This document shows positions 2,387 through 31,126 of a DNA stretch of 64,000 nucleotides, one piece after another. The stretch is from Candidatus Saccharimonadota bacterium. GTDB taxonomy: Bacteria > Patescibacteriota > Saccharimonadia > Saccharimonadales > Saccharimonadaceae. Each line of letters opens with the position of its first letter. The first letter of the stretch is position 1. A model generated the notes under the pieces. That model did no database searches. It worked only from the letters and a program-made list of their open reading frames with translations, and was not told where the DNA came from. Where the stretch lies: positions 186,001 through 250,000 of the forward strand of contig VGLK01000001.1 of the NCBI GenBank assembly GCA_016866755.1, read 5' to 3'. The position numbers were made by a program, and so were the translations under genes.

Positions 2387-2718
2387 ATGAAATCGTTATT
2401 TGATAAAGCTGAATTATTAACACCGAAGGACGTACTTAATTTTTTTCAATCTGCAATAAAGTATAGAGAATTTCACAAAGACGAATCGAAAAAATAGCTC
2501 TATTCGTTTTTGACGCCACTCATGAAACTAAAATAAATGTGCGCTTGGGTAAAGATTTACAACATATACGCTACGAATTTGGTGCGCTAGAAGCGCCTGG
2601 ATGGCCCGAGAATGGCGAAGATGAAATAGGGTACGAGGATAAGTTGTGGGCGCAACTGTCTTTAGTTATTAATTTTAAAATGAAAAGCGGACAGTTTAAC
2701 GACTTATCCAGGTCGTGA
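2387..2718 (+). pseudogene. Small unknown gene with a -1 frameshift at an A6 run
   Basis: ATG 2387 opens a frame of 36 codons (MKSLFDKAELL... DESKK) stopped by TAG at 2495. In the -1 frame the sequence stays open from the A6 run at 2489-2494 to TGA 2716-2718 with sensible composition (IALFVFDATHETKINVRLG onward). This gives about 110 residues in all. The slip site is AAA-AAA immediately before the stop, so programmed -1 frameshifting is possible, but a simple disrupted gene or a homopolymer sequencing error is equally compatible. No family recognised. Confidence 0.5.
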
Positions 2719-2800
2719 CGATAATCGTGGTTATGTAAAACCAACGTGATGTAATATTTATAAATATTCATCTGTGTACTGATAAATAACTAACTCCATT

Positions 2801-3707
2801 TTATTTGGACAACGCATCAACCATACGCCGAAGTAAGCCTATCAATTGCGCGTTGCTCATGCCACCTACCATGCCGGTTCCGTGGTCATTTTCGCCTTGT
2901 ACAAGCTCGTGTAAAGCCAAAGTTGCCAGCACGTGTTCGCTAAAAGGTGCCGATTCATGATTGCGCTGATCGTTATTTTCTGGCGCGTATTCGTCGGTGT
3001 GGCCATCGAGGTGAGGGTCGTGTACCACCTAAGACTAGCGCCTAGCTCACTTGAATCGTACTCGGCCCCCTCAAGTGTACTTACATACTCACCATCCTTC
3101 ATAAGATCATAAAAAATACTGTAACTATGGTCGACAGCCTGTATAAAAGGCACGATATTGTAGGCAACTTTAATTACTTGATATATTTGACACGGCGAAC
3201 TAACGCTATCAGAGGCTTGTGGGCTTTGCCTCACATCTTCCGGCGAATCGTCATCATCATACGTTGGGTCAAGATCGCCGAGTGCTTCGCGGTGAATATG
3301 AGCTGGCAAATCAACAAACGATGCCGGCGTGGTGAAAGTTGAGCTTAGTTGATAAACAGACGTATCAACTCGTTTTCGCTCTTTAGCTGAAAGCTCCGAT
3401 AAATCGGCAAGTTGCGAAAAGATGGCAAAACTTAGCGTACTTTCTTAATGTGGCTCGGTGCTGTCGGCTTCATCAAGATTACACATTTTATTTTCAACCA
3501 GTAAATTAGCGGTAAGTTCAAACTGAATTGAACCGGTGTGTCCACCGTGCGGAAATAGTTTCAGGTGCTGTAAATATTCTCGTCGTTCGCGCAAATTATC
3601 GCAAAGTACACTAAACAGTTCACCGCCGCGCTCTAGCTGTTGGGCGAGTTTTTCTTCCGATGGTGGTCGCCACTGGCGCGGACGGGTAGATGATTTTGCT
3701 CAGACAT
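2801..3707 (-). pseudogene. Decayed unknown gene, three disruptions
   Basis: Read on the minus strand from ATG 3707, about 300 residues of plausible protein can be followed through three breaks. There is a frameshift after about 10 codons near 3670, an in-frame TAA at 3447-3445, and another frameshift near 3025. The tail ends MVDALSK at 2801. The middle part contains an acidic run (DPTYDDDDSPED). Because each piece is in ordinary codons and joins to the next, this looks like a recently inactivated gene. No family recognised; only two of the pieces appear as sizeable open frames. Confidence 0.6.
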
Positions 3708-15186: not shown

Positions 15187-15426
15187 ATGCGTGCTTTGTT
15201 TGCGACCGTTCTGGCCTTCGCGTCGCCCGGTGCCTTTCTGGCCGCCCAGTACGGGCTGGTGGGCGGAACCGTCGTCGGTGTCGTCTCCATGGTCTCGGTC
15301 GTCCCGATGATCTGGAACAAGACCTCGCTGAGGAACTTCTACCGCTACACCTACCCGGCGCCGCTCAAGCGTCCGGTCACGAACCTGAACCCGTGCCGCA
15401 ACGGGGGCTACCGCTTCAGCTGCTAG
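15187..15426 (+). CDS. Unknown small membrane protein, G+C-rich orphan (cassette A)
   Basis: A 79-residue protein with a hydrophobic N-terminal half (about residues 3-42, one or two membrane segments) and a basic, tyrosine-rich tail (KTSLRNFYRYTYPAPLKRPV) ending in Cys. By my count about 70 of 79 codons end in G or C, unlike rpoC next to it. The start has a perfect GGAGGA site (15178-15183). It has its own promoter and a large hairpin terminator, so it is an autonomous unit. No family recognised. Codon use suggests horizontal transfer or a distinct selective regime. Confidence 0.6.
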   Translation: MRALFATVLAFASPGAFLAAQYGLVGGTVVGVVSMVSVVPMIWNKTSLRNFYRYTYPAPLKRPVTNLNPCRNGGYRFSC

Positions 15427-15480
15427 GCCTCAGCGGCTAAGCAGTTCTACATCCAAATTAGCCCGCTACTAAGCAATGGG

Positions 15481-15550
15481 AGCGCCCGCTATTTGATGAG
15501 TTTAAAAGCTCATCATTTAGCCGCCCAGCTTACTAGCGGGCGCTTTCTAT
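15481..15550 (+). terminator. Branched terminator of cassette A
   Basis: AGCGCCCGCTA (15481-15491) pairs perfectly with TAGCGGGCGCT (15534-15544), followed by TTCT. An inner GATGAG/CTCATC hairpin sits in the loop. A second copy of the left arm, AGCCCGCTA, lies about 20 nt upstream and could compete for the same right arm. Confidence 0.65.
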
Positions 15551-15558
15551 GTCTACTA

Positions 15559-15587
15559 TTTACAAAAGTAATTAAAAGTTATATTAT
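15559..15587 (+). promoter_or_regulatory. Promoter of the lipoprotein gene (cassette B)
   Basis: TTTACA, 17 bp, TATTAT. Confidence 0.65.
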
Positions 15588-15624
15588 AAATTCGTCCATA
15601 TGTAGTTTGATCCCAGGGGGAATC

Positions 15625-16296
15625 ATGTTTGTGCGTAAGGGAATGTTCAGTGTCGCGGCTATCGGGATGCTGCTGCTGACCGGCTGCGGTGGCGAAGAAC
15701 CTGTCGCGGAAACTGGCGAGAGTAGCGATCGGGTCGTCGCGGAAACCGGTGGTGGTGAACAGCCTACCGCGGAAGTCAACGATGACCAGGAGGAAATCTC
15801 CGCTTCCAACCCGGTCCAAGGCGGTGCCAGCAACGGCATCGGTGTCGAGCTGCCGGCCGATCCGATCAGCCGCGGCGACTACAACCAGTCGGTCATCGAC
15901 GAAGCCGAAGAGGGCAAGACCGTCCACAGTCACGCTTTGTGTATGTTCGGATCAATCGGCTACTCGCCGTTCTACCCCGGACAGAGTCAGGAAAAGGTCG
16001 GCGTCTCGATGGCGCCGAATGTTCGGCCGGAGTTCTACGTCCCGATCAGTGATCTTGTGGCTACGGGTGAAGAGGGTGTCTATATCCTCGACGAGCCGGA
16101 GCCCATGCAGTGCGACATGTATGCCGTGGCCATCACGACGGTCATGTCGTCGAACGGCCGGATTATCGATGACATGACTGTCATCTACCAGCACGCCACC
16201 GATCCAGACATTCAGGTTCACGAGCGAGTGTACCCGGGGTATCCGGAGGCAAGTGTGCCGCTCGCGGATCAGCCGGTCGTCGACCTCAACGGATGA
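15625..16296 (+). CDS. Predicted secreted lipoprotein, G+C-rich orphan (cassette B)
   Basis: A 223-residue protein with a lipoprotein signal peptide: basic start (MFVRKG), hydrophobic core and lipobox LTGC with the lipidated cysteine at residue 21. A low-complexity acidic Glu/Thr/Gly linker (about 22-75) precedes a globular domain with two cysteines (ALCMFG and MQCDMY), which may form a disulfide. It should be anchored on the outer face of the membrane. The start is set by AGGGGG-AATC-ATG, the same layout as cassette A. Codons are mainly C- or G-ending. The frame is open upstream to 15493, but that part overlaps the promoter. Function unknown. Confidence 0.7.
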   Translation: MFVRKGMFSVAAIGMLLLTGCGGEEPVAETGESSDRVVAETGGGEQPTAEVNDDQEEISASNPVQGGASNGIGVELPADPISRGDYNQSVIDEAEEGKTVHSHALCMFGSIGYSPFYPGQSQEKVGVSMAPNVRPEFYVPISDLVATGEEGVYILDEPEPMQCDMYAVAITTVMSSNGRIIDDMTVIYQHATDPDIQVHERVYPGYPEASVPLADQPVVDLNG

Positions 16297-22368: not shown

Positions 22369-22433
22369 GTAGGTAACATTCCCGTAACTGGTTGAGTGTA
22401 ATCGCTCCTTACTATTTAGGGTAGGTGACAAGC

Positions 22434-23126
22434 ATGAGCGGCAAGCCGACTGTATGGCAGTTAAAAAAAAGACGGCGACAAGCGTGGCGAAAGTTAAAAC
22501 TAGCCGAGAGCAATCTCGAAGAGTCAAGGTTACATCTCGCTCGTATTCAAGCGCAGTGTCGATTAAAGTTGGCAGAACTCCACCAGGAGCGTGTACAAAT
22601 TAGTAGCGATTTAGATAAGGTTTTTGAACTTGAAAACCGCATAATCGAGACTGGTGTATTCTGGGAGCTACATGAAATTGAGACTCGTCTTAAGCTTTTG
22701 CGGCGAAGACTGCGTAAGGTTTCGGTGCGAATCGAGCGGCTTAATCTATTGCTGCGTAAAGCACATCGCAAAGTTCGAGACTCTAGGCGACTGGTGGGGC
22801 GAGCCCGACAGAGTTATCAGTTTGCTAAATGCCAAGTTTGGCGTGCCACGGCTCATAACTTTGCGCCAATTGTGCCATGGTCTAAAAAGTTGCAGCTGGC
22901 AAGTTCAATACGTGTGCCGTCTCAATATCACAATAATCTTCACGTGGTTATTTGCCTTAATGCAATTCATGTGTATTTTGGCGGTGAAAATTTTCCCACC
23001 GACAAAGGGCACGGACATTACGTTATAGAGGAGGGGTTTGTTACTTACCGGCGTGATCCATATGTTCCGCATGGCGAAGGTCGCTTAGAGGCGGAATGGG
23101 AACTACGTGAACGGGATTGTCAATAG
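22434..23126 (+). CDS. Unknown basic coiled-coil protein
   Basis: A 230-residue protein. Residues 1 to about 135 are Arg/Lys/Leu-rich with heptad-like spacing (ENRIIETG, ETRLKLLRRRLRKV, RLNLLLRKAHRKV), predicting a long basic coiled coil. The C-terminal 80 residues look like a small beta-rich domain (VVICLNAIHVYFGGENF, then GHYVIEEGFVTYRR). No signal peptide. Start ATG 22434 has TAGGTGA at the right distance; GTG 22425 overlaps that site. Function unknown; nucleic-acid binding is possible from charge alone. Confidence 0.65.
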   Translation: MSGKPTVWQLKKRRRQAWRKLKLAESNLEESRLHLARIQAQCRLKLAELHQERVQISSDLDKVFELENRIIETGVFWELHEIETRLKLLRRRLRKVSVRIERLNLLLRKAHRKVRDSRRLVGRARQSYQFAKCQVWRATAHNFAPIVPWSKKLQLASSIRVPSQYHNNLHVVICLNAIHVYFGGENFPTDKGHGHYVIEEGFVTYRRDPYVPHGEGRLEAEWELRERDCQ

Positions 23127-23141
23127 TAGCAAGAGGGCGAT

Positions 23142-23194
23142 TGGCTCGATCAAGTATGCAAAAATGTATGCAAAGATCGAGCCATTTCGTTTTT
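23142..23194 (+). terminator. Terminator of the coiled-coil gene
   Basis: TGGCTCGATC (23142-23151) pairs perfectly with GATCGAGCCA (23175-23184) followed by TTTCGTTTTT. The loop holds a tandem TATGCAAA-type repeat. Confidence 0.9.
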
Positions 23195-23207
23195 AGTTAA
23201 ATTACTA

Positions 23208-23236
23208 TTGACATATTTGTATCGATATGTTATATT
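23208..23236 (+). promoter_or_regulatory. Strong promoter of cassette C
   Basis: Consensus TTGACA, 17 bp, TATATT: the best -35 in the window. Transcription would start near 23243. Confidence 0.8.
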
Positions 23237-23242
23237 ACGTTC

Positions 23243-23497
23243 AAGTTTGATTGATCTAGCTGATCTCAAGCGCACTTTGACAAGTTGAATGCTATACACG
23301 CTTCTCTTAGACATATCGATACGAACCTTCGCATCTGTATGCCCGAGAGAAGCACTACGCTCTCGGTCTCGGTACTGTTTGCAGTACGTTCGCAAGACTT
23401 CTTGTTGGACGTGCTACTCGTACAGTTACCGCCACCCCGAGCGACGATCCGATTCGTCGCCATGCCCAACACCGACGCCCCGAACTGGGGCACTACG
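23243..23497 (+). ncRNA. Multi-hairpin leader RNA of cassette C
   Basis: About 255 nt between the promoter and the first well-supported small ORF. Hairpins that can be read directly: CTTCTCT (23301) with AGAGAAG (23346), which competes with CGAGAG (23344) pairing to CTCTCG (23360); GTACTG/CAGTAC (23372-23387); GCGACGA/TCGTCGC (23441-23460); and GCCCC/GGGGC (23477-23491). The first two are mutually exclusive, as in riboswitch-like leaders. Open frames across it lack consistent codon bias, so it is treated as RNA. Not a recognised family. Confidence 0.5.
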
Positions 23498-23510
23498 AAA
23501 GGTGCTACTC

Positions 23511-23654
23511 ATGCATGCCACCTCCCGCGGCTCGCCGACGAGCCGCAACTCCAACAGGCGCTCGACGCGCTCTTTCTTCATGTTCAGCCCCTTCGCCGCG
23601 GTCCTGCAGGCCGGCTCCTCCGAGGAGCGCGCCCTGGCGACCTCGACCTCCTGA
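23511..23654 (+). CDS. Small Ser/Arg-rich protein, 47 aa (cassette C)
   Basis: ATG 23511 preceded by AAAGGTG (23498-23504) at 6 bases. It encodes 47 residues rich in Ser, Thr and Arg with a hydrophobic patch (FFMFSPFAAVL). Nearly all third codon positions are C or G while first and second positions are mixed, a clear coding signal in this frame and the same codon style as cassettes A, B, D and E. A longer overlapping frame (to 23710) lacks that bias at its start. No family recognised. Confidence 0.5.
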   Translation: MHATSRGSPTSRNSNRRSTRSFFMFSPFAAVLQAGSSEERALATSTS

Positions 23655-23752
23655 CCCACGGCCGGCCGGGTCGCCACAAACCTCCATCGAGGGAGTTAGG
23701 TGGCGGCTGAAGCTACCCGTGAACAACATTAAGAAAGGTAAGGTGAAGGATC

Positions 23753-23791
23753 ATGTGCTGCATCCGCGGTTCCACGACCCTGATCTTCTAA
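23753..23791 (+). CDS. Possible 12-aa peptide (cassette C)
   Basis: ATG 23753 has a strong AAGGTGAAGGATC site in front and encodes MCCIRGSTTLIF, with 10 of the 11 codons after the start ending in C or G. Too short to be certain, but the ribosome site and codon style fit the cassette. Confidence 0.35.
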   Translation: MCCIRGSTTLIF

Positions 23792-23838
23792 CCACCACTC
23801 GGGGCTCATCGTCGCGAATAGTAGAAAGGACTAAGGCT

Positions 23839-23868
23839 ATGTACTGGTCTGGTTTTCTGGAGCGCTAG
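23839..23868 (+). CDS. Possible 9-aa peptide (cassette C)
   Basis: ATG 23839 after AAAGGACTAAGGCT encodes MYWSGFLER. Its stop codon lies inside the first stem of the structured RNA that follows, so translation would open that stem. Confidence 0.3.
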   Translation: MYWSGFLER

Positions 23869-24036
23869 CCAGCGGTAAAGAGGCTTAGCCTCGGTCCGCT
23901 GGAGTTCCAGATAATAGTGTAGCCCCACTGAGTGGGCGGGTGTAAGTATTTGGTGGCACTTGTGCCTTTGTTGGTGCACGAAGCGGTTAATCCGCAGCCT
24001 GAAAAACCAGATCTTACAATACCCGCCCACTCGGGC
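23857..24036 (+). ncRNA. Structured RNA of cassette C
   Basis: Two large domains can be paired by eye. First: CTGGA (23857) with TCCAG (23906), enclosing CCAGCGG (23869) with CCGCTGG (23896), enclosing GAGGC/GCCTC. Second: GCCC (23922) with GGGC (24033), then GAGTGGGCGGGT (23930) with ACCCGCCCACTC (24021), and GTAAG with CTTAC. The second encloses small hairpins GGCAC/GTGCC and GCGG/CCGC. It is not RNase P RNA, tmRNA or SRP RNA by their conserved motifs. Role unknown. Confidence 0.55.
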
Positions 24037-24083
24037 GCAACAACTAGCATTCAACTTGTCATATTAATACCTAGAAATTATCA

Positions 24084-24111
24084 CCACCCCGAGAAATTGG
24101 GGTGGCTTTGC
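24084..24111 (+). terminator. Terminal hairpin of cassette C, possibly shared with clpB
   Basis: CCACCCC (24084-24090) pairs with GGGGTGG (24099-24105), loop GAGAAATT, followed only by CTTTG. It also lies just after the clpB stop on the other strand. Confidence 0.55.
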
Positions 24112-24125
24112 GTTTGGCGCTGACT

Positions 24126-26264
24126 TTACCTAGTGAAAGCGATTTTATTACTCTTTAAATCAACTCGCACTTCATCGCCTTCATTAATACGACTGTCAAT
24201 TATTTCTAATGCTAGAGGGTTTAGTATTTTAGTTTGGATCAAACGCTTTAGCGGTCGAGCGCCAAAGGCCGGGTCGAAGCCGTCTCGAGCTAGCGACCGT
24301 CGCACAGAATCTGAAAAGATTAAACTAATACCTTTGTTTTGTTGTATCTGTTTTGTAACTGCCGCTAACTGTACGTTAACAATTTTCTCCATGCTATTTT
24401 CTGTAATTCGATTAAAAAGCACGATATCGTCGATACGATTAATGAACTCCGGCCGCAGGTGAGTTCGCAGGCTATCAAGTACTTGCGACTCGATTATTGA
24501 TAAATCATCACCTTTATAGTCCTGAATTACTTGCGACCCCAGATTGCTAGTCATGACGATTATTGTATTTGTGAAATTCACCGTCCGCCCCTGACCATCA
24601 GTCAACCGGCCGTCGTCAAGCACTTGTAGTAAAACGTTAAAAACATCTGGGTGAGCCTTTTCAATCTCATCAAATAGTATCACGCTGTACGGTCGGCGGC
24701 GCACTGCCTCTGTCAATTGTCCGCCTTGTTCATAGCCAATATAGCCCGGAGGTGAACCGATAAGCCGTGATACCGCGTGAGCCTCCATGTATTCGCTCAT
24801 GTCAATGCGAATCATGGCGCGCTCATCATTAAACAATTGCTGGCTAAGTGTTCGGGCGACTTCAGTTTTACCAACTCCAGTTGGGCCAAGGAATAGAAAT
24901 GAGCCAATTGGACGGTTCTGATCTGATATACCAGCCCGCGAGCGTCGTATGGCGTTGGCGACGCTTTCGATGGCTCTGTCTTGAGCAATTACACGAGCCC
25001 TCATAATTTCTTCTAGATTTGATAGTTTTTGCGTCTCCGACTCAACCAATCTATCAACCGGTATGCCTGTCCACCGAGCCACGACCGCCGCAATATCATC
25101 TGGAGTAACCTGATCGCGCAAGGTACGCTCATTTTCGGGTATTAAGGCAATCTGATCTCTAGCTTCCGCTAATTTCTTTTGAGTTTCGGGAATTTCACCG
25201 TACTTTATACGACTGGCCGTTGCAAGATCTGCTTCACGTTCGGCCGCCACAAGCTGCGAGCGCAGATCGTCAAGCTTTTCGGCATAGCGGTTAACCTGCG
25301 AAATCAGCTCTTTTTCGTGTTGCCATATTTTTGATTCAGCTTTGGCTTGCAATTTGAGCTGGCTAATTTGGTTATCAATTTCTGCCTTACGTTTTTTAGC
25401 ACTATCCAATTTATCTTTTTTAAGTGCCGTCTGTTCAATTTCAAGTTGAATAATACGATGATTTAGTCGATCTAGCTCGATTGGCGTCGATTCAAGCTGC
25501 ATTTTTAACGCGCTTGTCGCTTCATCTAGCAGGTCTACCGCTTTATCGGGCAAAAATCGATCCGGTAAATAGCGAGTGCTTAATTGAGCTGCTGCCACAA
25601 TAGCTGCGTCGGTAATTTTTACGCCGTGATGCACTTCATATTTTTCCTGAATACCACGAAGAATAGCGATCGTGTCATTGAGTGTCGGCTCGCCAACATA
25701 CACTGGTTGAAAGCGGCGCTCAAGAGCGGCGTCGGTCTCGATGTATTTTCGGTATTCGTTCAGAGTAGTTGCGCCAATCATATGCAGCTTGCCACGGGCA
25801 AGGAGAGGTTTTAGCATGTTACCGGCATCTACCGAGCCACCGCCACCACCGGCTCCAACAATAGTATGAAGTTCATCAACAAATAATAAGATTTCCCCAG
25901 CCGCATCTTCGACCTGTTTTAATACTGCCTTAAGCCGCTCTTCAAACTGACCTTTAAACGATGCACCGGCGAGAAGCGAGCTAATCTCTAAACTAATAAG
26001 CTGTTTATTTTTAAGGCTAGATGGTACATCGCCACTTATAATACGTTGCGCAAGCGCTTCTATGATGGCAGTTTTACCAACTCCTGGCTCGCCAATAAGA
26101 ACAGGATTATTTTTAGTACGACGGCTTAAAATCTGCATTGTACGGCGAATTTCATCGTCTCGTCCAATAACAGGATCAAGTTTGCCCTCGCGAGCTAGAG
26201 CTGTAATATCTTGCCCGTACTGTTCGAGTGGTAGCTTATCTGATTGTTGACTATCTGGATTCAT
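24126..26264 (-). CDS. clpB: ClpB-type disaggregase without the N-terminal domain
   Basis: A 712-residue Hsp100 ATPase. It has two AAA+ modules: Walker A GEPGVGKT with Walker [10 protein letters not shown] in the first, and GPTGVGKT with [15 protein letters not shown] in the second. The long coiled-coil middle domain (about residues 255-390) identifies ClpB. The usual N-terminal Clp_N domain (about 145 residues) is missing: the protein begins just before the D1 linker [13 protein letters not shown]. Start ATG 26264 is set by AAAGGAG six bases before it. A CIRCE operator lies upstream. Confidence 0.93.
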
Positions 26265-29319: not shown

Positions 29320-29727
29320 TTACTGTGGCAGCATGTACACCAGGCGGATTCCCTTGTCGGGGTTGTAGTCGACATAGGACTTCTTGATGTTGATCTGGCC
29401 GTAGGTGCCGAGCCTGAAGCGCGAGCTGTGCATGAAGTGCGGCAGGCTGTTGTGCAGCAGGGTCTCAACCTGAAACCGCTTGAGATGGACGCCGTTGTAG
29501 GGGATCCAATCTGTCGTGATGCGGTAGAACTTCTTGCCGCCACGCACCGAGTTGTAGAGGCCACCACCACGAACGGTGCGTCCGCTTCTGATGCTCTCCA
29601 TGAGGGTCTCGACGACAGGCGAGCACTTGGCGGTGAGGTCTTCGATGCTCATGCGCGGAGGCCCCACCAGGCGCCTGAGCGTACCGGTCTTGGGGGTAGA
29701 AGCTTGCTGGTTTCTTGAGGGGTTCAC
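29320..29727 (-). CDS. Unknown basic protein, G+C-rich orphan (cassette D)
   Basis: A 135-residue basic protein starting GTG 29727 with AAAGGT seven bases before it. An internal ATG (SIEDLTAKC start, about residue 26) is an alternative. Codons end mostly in C or G, unlike neighbouring tuf and rpsJ. There is a Gly-rich turn (GRTVRGGGLYNSVRGGKK) and an aromatic-rich second half. No signal peptide or membrane segment; no family recognised. It has its own promoter (29765-29792) under a palindromic operator and its own terminator. Confidence 0.6.
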   Translation of the reverse strand: MNPSRNQQASTPKTGTLRRLVGPPRMSIEDLTAKCSPVVETLMESIRSGRTVRGGGLYNSVRGGKKFYRITTDWIPYNGVHLKRFQVETLLHNSLPHFMHSSRFRLGTYGQINIKKSYVDYNPDKGIRLVYMLPQ

Positions 29728-30748: not shown

Positions 30749-31126
30749 TTACCGCACGAACTTGTGCGTTACCTCACTTCGAAGATCAATGCGCAGCAGG
30801 CCGCCCACGCGCACGGCCTTCGCTACCTTGACCCAGCCATTGGGGCGAACACCGTGCCGCCTGACAGTCTCATCTACGCAGCGTTGAAACAGCTGAGATG
30901 CGTACTGCTGAAGCTTGGTGTGATTGATCTCGACATTGCGGTCGGAGCTGCTGCTCGCCTCGAGGGGGTAGTAGAACGTGTGGTTGTGGGGACGCGTGAC
31001 GTTCATCAGGTGAACCTGCGTCTTGGCAGTGATGGCTTCGTTCGAAATTTCTTTCGTCAAGCCGGTCATGGCCTGACGAAGCGCGATCATTGCTTCAGTT
31101 TGGAGTTGTCCTTCGGAAGGTGCCAT
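30749..31126 (-). CDS. Unknown protein, G+C-rich orphan (cassette E)
   Basis: A 125-residue protein. The N-terminal third looks helical (EGQLQTEAMIALRQAMTGL), the middle has HNHTFYYPLEASSSSDRN, and the tail is basic. No signal peptide or membrane segment; no family recognised. Start ATG 31126 has GAGG eight bases before it. C/G-ending codons dominate, as in cassettes A-D, in contrast to rplC next door. Own promoter and terminator. Confidence 0.6.
   Translation of the reverse strand: MAPSEGQLQTEAMIALRQAMTGLTKEISNEAITAKTQVHLMNVTRPHNHTFYYPLEASSSSDRNVEINHTKLQQYASQLFQRCVDETVRRHGVRPNGWVKVAKAVRVGGLLRIDLRSEVTHKFVR

Follow-up and report, generated by a model that had tools for sequence, protein, structure and literature searches.

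Large structured RNAs of bacteria and the present locus

Beyond the ribosome, RNase P and tmRNA, large structured RNAs are few in bacteria, and a limited literature search returned no description of one from Saccharibacteria or any other Patescibacteria. GOLLD and ROOL are large stand-alone RNAs with extensive folding and an internal disordered linker; GOLLD members often exceed 800 nt, the GOLLD linker sometimes carries tRNAs, and both RNAs assemble into cages with the disordered linker inside (PMC12286853). The GOLLD and ROOL cages are homo-oligomers joined by kissing loops. OLE RNA, of about 600 nt, is likewise a large, stand-alone and highly structured bacterial RNA. Long-range pairing of the 5' and 3' parts is combined with an internal small ORF in staphylococcal RNAIII, while in the hok mRNA the 3' end folds onto the 5' region, where it could silence translation (PMC3868564). 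A dual-function RNA of the RNAIII type has its small ORF translated and also pairs with target mRNAs.

The locus described here shares features with each of these systems. It lies at 23208-24110 of the window, by which we mean the whole 64-kb stretch of DNA that was analysed; its general kind, a large structured bacterial RNA, is known, and it is a member of no known family. In layout, though not in sequence, its pair of predicted rigid domains with a loose linker is reminiscent of GOLLD and ROOL. Unlike those RNAs, the locus has no Rfam match, no homologues, no phage setting and no adjoining tRNA cluster, and its linker is G+C-rich with a codon-like periodicity. The lack of an Rfam match also separates it from OLE RNA, which occurs mostly in Bacillota extremophiles and anaerobes. 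In contrast to RNAIII, the locus is longer, has no sequence relation in Rfam searches, and carries C-rich CCTCC motifs that are only partly unpaired; unlike the hok mRNA, it contains neither a hydrophobic toxin-like ORF nor an antisense promoter.

A putative transcription unit with no gene to regulate

The size, gene content and relatives of the genome suggest Patescibacteria, most likely Saccharimonadales. In this genome of 848 kb in 7 contigs, the locus forms a G+C-rich island (0.62-0.64 per 200-nt bin vs 0.45 for the 64-kb window) with no recognisable protein. A G+C-rich stretch of this type is the pattern exploited to detect structured RNAs in lower-G+C genomes (PMC6429828). The promoter pointed out in the initial annotation is borne out (Table 1), and a consensus scan finds it to be the sole promoter-like site on either strand of 23050-24300; its position places the expected transcription start near 23243. 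The final hairpin (24084-24105), noted in the same annotation, is followed by a T-rich tail and is terminator-like. Promoter and terminator bracket about 870 nt, and both are positioned and oriented correctly for one transcript.

The left neighbour terminates in its own strong hairpin (23147-23196), the clpB-type gene on the right is convergent with the locus on the opposite strand, and after the terminator the next likely + strand gene is found only beyond 26400. Because the unit has a strong promoter, its own terminator, a convergent clpB and no same-strand gene downstream, its product would be the RNA itself or a peptide made from it. A cis-regulatory leader, attenuator or riboswitch is ruled out, as there is no same-strand gene downstream for regulation.

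The promoter spacer contains TTTGTATCGATATGT, whose core TATCGATA is palindromic, and an inverted near-copy lies about 70 nt inside the transcript. This pair is a possible operator for autoregulation, although the statistics are weak, with two matches at ≤3 mismatches in the whole window vs 1.85 expected.

The N-terminus of the 233-codon protein encoded at 22425-23126 is coiled-coil-like. This protein has matches in 20 other family genomes, mostly to its C-terminal segment (about 155-220), within open frames of at most 475 aa.

Table 1. Features of the locus and its surroundings, in window coordinates.
Feature	Position	Strand	Description
fusA and 233-codon orphan gene			left of the locus
Sigma-70-type promoter	23208-23236	+	TTGACA-17-TATATT; 11 of 12 consensus positions; TG ahead of the -10 box
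Candidate operator pair	23216-23230 and 23311-23325		TTTGTATCGATATGT in promoter spacer and inverted near-copy; weak
First transcript hairpin	23245-23271	+	10 bp; mean pair probability 0.98
P1, left strand	23278-23294	+	TGACAAGTTGAATGCTA; 17 bp, perfect
5' domain	23300-23458	+	rigid (predicted); P2-P4
P2	23300-23353	+	rod-like hairpin of 5' domain; 21 bp; mean probability 0.97
P3	23359-23442	+	long bent hairpin of 5' domain; 18 + 14 bp; mean probabilities 0.84, 0.96
P4	23443-23458	+	hairpin CGACG/CGTCG; mean probability 0.87
Further 5' hairpin	23477-23491	+	predicted fold
Central linker	23463-23842	+	about 380 nt; G+C up to about 0.7; structure no greater than composition gives; contains 47- and 12-codon ORFs and start of 9-codon ORF
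Antisense ORF	23426-23677	-	83 codons; GTG at 23677, preceded by GGAGG; third positions common with + frame
Mini-ORF, 47 codons	23511-23654	+	MHATSRGSPTSRNSNRRSTRSFFMFSPFAAVLQAGSSEERALATSTS; third codon positions 0.94 G+C
ORF, 117 codons	23515 (start)	+	overlaps 47-codon ORF; counted in ribosome-site scan
Mini-ORF, 12 codons	23753-23791	+	MCCIRGSTTLIF; GAAGGATC upstream
Mini-ORF, 9 codons	23839-23868	+	MYWSGFLER; extends into first hairpin of 3' domain
3' domain	23843-24036	+	rigid (predicted); P5-P6
P5	23856-23911	+	rod; 8 + 7 + 5 bp, including 23869-23875/23896-23902; mean probabilities 0.93, 0.99, 1.00
P6	23930-24032	+	stem closing a junction; 12 + 12 bp; mean probabilities 0.96, 0.98
P6 inner hairpins	23960-23981, 23983-23995	+	within P6 junction
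P1, right strand	24045-24061	+	perfect complement of 23278-23294
Intrinsic terminator	24084-24110	+	9-bp stem (hairpin 24084-24105), then CTTTGCGTTT, T-rich
clpB-type gene, then tuf			right of the locus

A perfect helix joins the two ends

The feature that organises the rest of the molecule, overlooked in the initial annotation, is the helix that we designate P1. It encloses, end to end, a domain of 784 nt, and when the full transcript is folded its pairs have ensemble probabilities of 0.78-1.0. Among inverted repeats with arms no more than 1500 nt apart it is the longest in the 64-kb window, and comparable inverted repeats in dinucleotide-shuffled versions of the transcript (2000 in all) reached 14 bp at most, vs the 17 bp of P1. 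The locus had been described as a leader followed by ORFs and then by a separate large RNA. This division is not supported: since P1 joins the 5' and 3' ends perfectly, 'leader' and 'large RNA' form one closed molecule, and, clpB being convergent, a leader would have nothing downstream to control.

At the DNA level, perfect arms of 17 bp set 784 nt apart, end to end, could also be the terminal inverted repeats of a small transposon-like mobile element of 784 bp, and the lineage-specific occurrence and unusual base composition of the locus would suit such an origin. We regard this as very improbable. The arms are not flanked by a target-site duplication (left ...GCACTT, right TATTAA...), the promoter and terminator lie just outside them, and the element is single copy, the only arm matches reported in the genome being its own two arms. 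An exact search for the P1 arms in 85,000 genomes returned 23 places, all of them single matches with no case of both arms inverted, about the number due to chance (~30 expected); likewise, an exact scan of viral contigs (IMG/VR) gave nothing above chance.

Both domains fold well beyond their composition

The closed domain has a folding z-score of -8.5 (23270-24070) or -13.0 (23278-24061), the two tests using different shuffle sets of 20 shuffles each; 39 equally long control segments drawn from the window have a mean z of -1.5 (sd 1.5, lowest -4.9), although z-scores of single sequences do not prove function. On the - strand the same domain reaches -7.8 vs -13.0 on the + strand. As a caution on such scores, the genome's own RNase P RNA reaches a z of only -2.9. 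Scored piecewise, the 5' domain has a z of -6.3 and the 3' domain one of -7.0, with the middle (23463-23842) at only -1.2, and sliding windows agree.

Much of this structure had been recognised from the outset. Where five leader hairpins were claimed, the fold has at least five 5' hairpins, namely the first transcript hairpin, P2, P3, P4 and the further 5' hairpin of Table 1. The 7-bp stem now placed in P5 and the 12-bp stem 23930-23941/24021-24032 of P6 are both present, with pairing probabilities near 1. The original observation is thus confirmed and is stronger than first described, and its interpretation as a whole is partly supported.

The control with the lowest z, 15401-16184, takes in the last part of the orphan gene at 15187, the hairpin-rich flank 3' of it and the greater part of the orphan gene at 15625.

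The linker carries a codon-like signal

The fold of the linker consists of many low-probability alternatives. Its G+C content is about 0.7 over 23500-23700, within a window at 0.45, and one codon phase is 88-95% G+C, which mononucleotide shuffles rarely match (p 0.00015). A periodicity of this kind is not required of a pure non-coding RNA, and it counts against an RNA-only reading. The linker also holds four copies of the anti-Shine-Dalgarno-like motif CCTCC (p 0.01), a weak hint of target pairing.

The mini-ORFs of 47, 12 and 9 codons each have, as originally claimed, a purine-rich upstream site. With the 117-codon ORF included, four ORFs (two of them overlapping) have such a site vs a shuffle mean of 0.92, and four or more occur in 1.2% of shuffles. 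One of these small peptides may be the real product, in which case the locus would be a dual-function or translationally locked mRNA, with P1 and the two domains holding the message in an inert or stable state until it is processed, in the manner of the hok mRNA or RNAIII, from which 5'-3' fold-back is known (PMC3868564). The modest excess of ribosome-site-like sequences points this way, as do the location of the codon-position signal inside the 47-codon ORF (Table 1) and the fairly unpaired start of the 9-codon ORF (unpaired probability 0.73). In contrast, the model pairs most of the site ahead of the 47-codon ORF and of that ahead of the 12-codon ORF (0.23 and 0.24 unpaired), and the peptides are unlike typical single-helix membrane toxins and have no relative or recognised domain. 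To illustrate, the 47-codon ORF has no match in Pfam, NCBIfam or a plasmid tblastn search, and the open frames of the locus tested as protein gave no known domain and no relative. No antisense promoter was found, and no sok-like antitoxin RNA is evident. Taken together, we consider a message of this type unlikely.

A hok/sok system proper was rejected on both of its components. Inspected by eye, none of the mini-ORF translations resembles a membrane helix; a short stretch, FFMFSPFAAVL, is the nearest feature they offer. A consensus scan shows no - strand promoter in 23050-24300.

The same G+C-rich codon phase is common to the + frame of the 47-codon ORF and to the - frame of the 83-codon antisense ORF, which could make the locus a minus-strand orphan protein gene akin in type to the G+C-rich orphan genes of the window, its structures overlapping by chance. 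As a whole, the antisense ORF has GC1 0.70, GC2 0.56 and GC3 0.81; over 23506-23677 its frame follows the usual coding order (GC1>GC2<GC3), and the frame log-likelihood ratio (LLR) there is as high as in genes A and D, exceeding every one of 500 shuffles. GGAGG precedes the GTG start, and similar - strand genes lie at 29320-29727 and 30749-31126. Yet for gene A the opposite frame sharing third positions scores equally well, and because real genes can score as well on the opposite strand, the scores do not settle the coding strand of the linker signal. The antisense ORF, moreover, has no - strand promoter in the scanned region and no family match, spans just 252 of the ~870 nt, and leaves P1 and the two domains unexplained, whereas the + strand folds much more strongly. 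A protein gene on the - strand is accordingly quite improbable.

Searches for known families and homologues

Within the searches made, the suggestion of a previously undescribed RNA is supported. Of the two comparisons that the initial annotation proposed, the Rfam covariance search was run and gave no match, which favours novelty, and the search for homologous loci in relatives found none. Specifically, Rfam cmscan of the locus returned no family at the gathering score nor at E≤10, and the locus matches none of the GOLLD, ROOL and OLE covariance models. RNase P RNA, SRP RNA, 6S RNA, group I and II introns and riboswitches are ruled out by the lack of an Rfam match, and the RNase P RNA of the genome sits elsewhere (C2:63940-64299). 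For tmRNA, ARAGORN reports none in the window, in agreement with Rfam, and this candidate is ruled out as well.

By blastn, no homologue was found among 101 and then 394 relatives, the matches being short, weak (E≥0.0026) and scattered over the query. Covariance models built from the single sequence returned only the window itself and noise of 11-12 bits, for the 3' domain in 295 and 385 genomes and for the 5' domain in 200 genomes. No counterpart RNA was found at the syntenic places, downstream of clpB in relatives and upstream of tuf in 20 relatives. A phage collection gave no match, a plasmid collection only matches of chance size, and a neighbour-protein search of genome contigs no match. 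That none of these searches returned a homologue counts against the RNA reading. Because the nearest clpB is only 74% identical and the lists of relatives include no same-genus genome, a rapidly evolving RNA may exist in relatives and escape detection.

Proposed molecule

The best reading of these results is a lineage-specific RNA that is either non-coding or doubles as the message for a small peptide. It would work in the manner of GOLLD, ROOL or RNAIII, yet is a member of none of these families. We think it somewhat probable that the locus is a stand-alone gene for a large structured RNA, with the RNA as its main product; the gene is probably real. What the computation shows is the promoter and terminator matches, P1, the excess folding of both domains, and the lack of a known family and of a regulated gene downstream; its transcription, processing, translation and any function are inferred. 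RNA polymerase would initiate near 23243, at a promoter that is strong and of constitutive type, and termination at hairpin 24084-24105 would give a transcript of ~870 nt. The 5' part (P2-P4) and the 3' part (P5-P6) would fold into two rigid domains, with P1 tying together their outer ends and so protecting the ends of the molecule. Alternatively, P1 may be a processing site, as the flanking helices of rRNA precursors are, at which RNase III or another double-strand RNase cuts to leave a mature RNA of ~750-780 nt. Between the domains, a flexible G+C-rich linker of ~380 nt would remain open to ribosomes or to interacting molecules. The RNA would probably act within a ribonucleoprotein or a self-assembled complex, and a short linker peptide is a possible second product.

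More tentatively, the locus may represent a new class, a large two-domain RNA closed end to end and confined to a single host-dependent lineage of Patescibacteria, in which a translated or cargo-like linker makes the molecule both scaffold and small message; we hold this to be possible rather than probable. That a genome of ~850 kb retains so large an RNA gene under a strong promoter suggests a costly, useful product, and the perfect pairing of P1 makes the hypothesis easily probed by mutation and compensation.

Other G+C-rich islands of the window

Four G+C-rich orphan genes, at 15187-15426 (+), 15625-16296 (+), 29320-29727 (-) and 30749-31126 (-), are located between rpoC and rpsL and within the S10-type operon. 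Their GC3 is 0.69-0.89 vs ~0.4 in housekeeping genes, and none has a Pfam family above the cut-off; a search of 100 genomes found no relative for the gene at 29320. With no homologue of its own, the RNA locus might by the same token be a non-functional stretch of decayed or foreign DNA whose structure is a relic of an acquired element. This is highly doubtful, as a near-consensus promoter, a terminator, P1 and nearly all-paired domains would be unlikely to last long unselected. No end sequences are common, beyond chance, to the RNA locus and the other G+C-rich islands.

Some of the G+C-rich orphan genes have their own promoter- and terminator-like flanks, and the gene at 15625 resembles a lipoprotein. 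Elsewhere in the window, short broken frames on both strands of 2390-3690, beside the tRNA-Leu gene at 2204, look like gene remnants.
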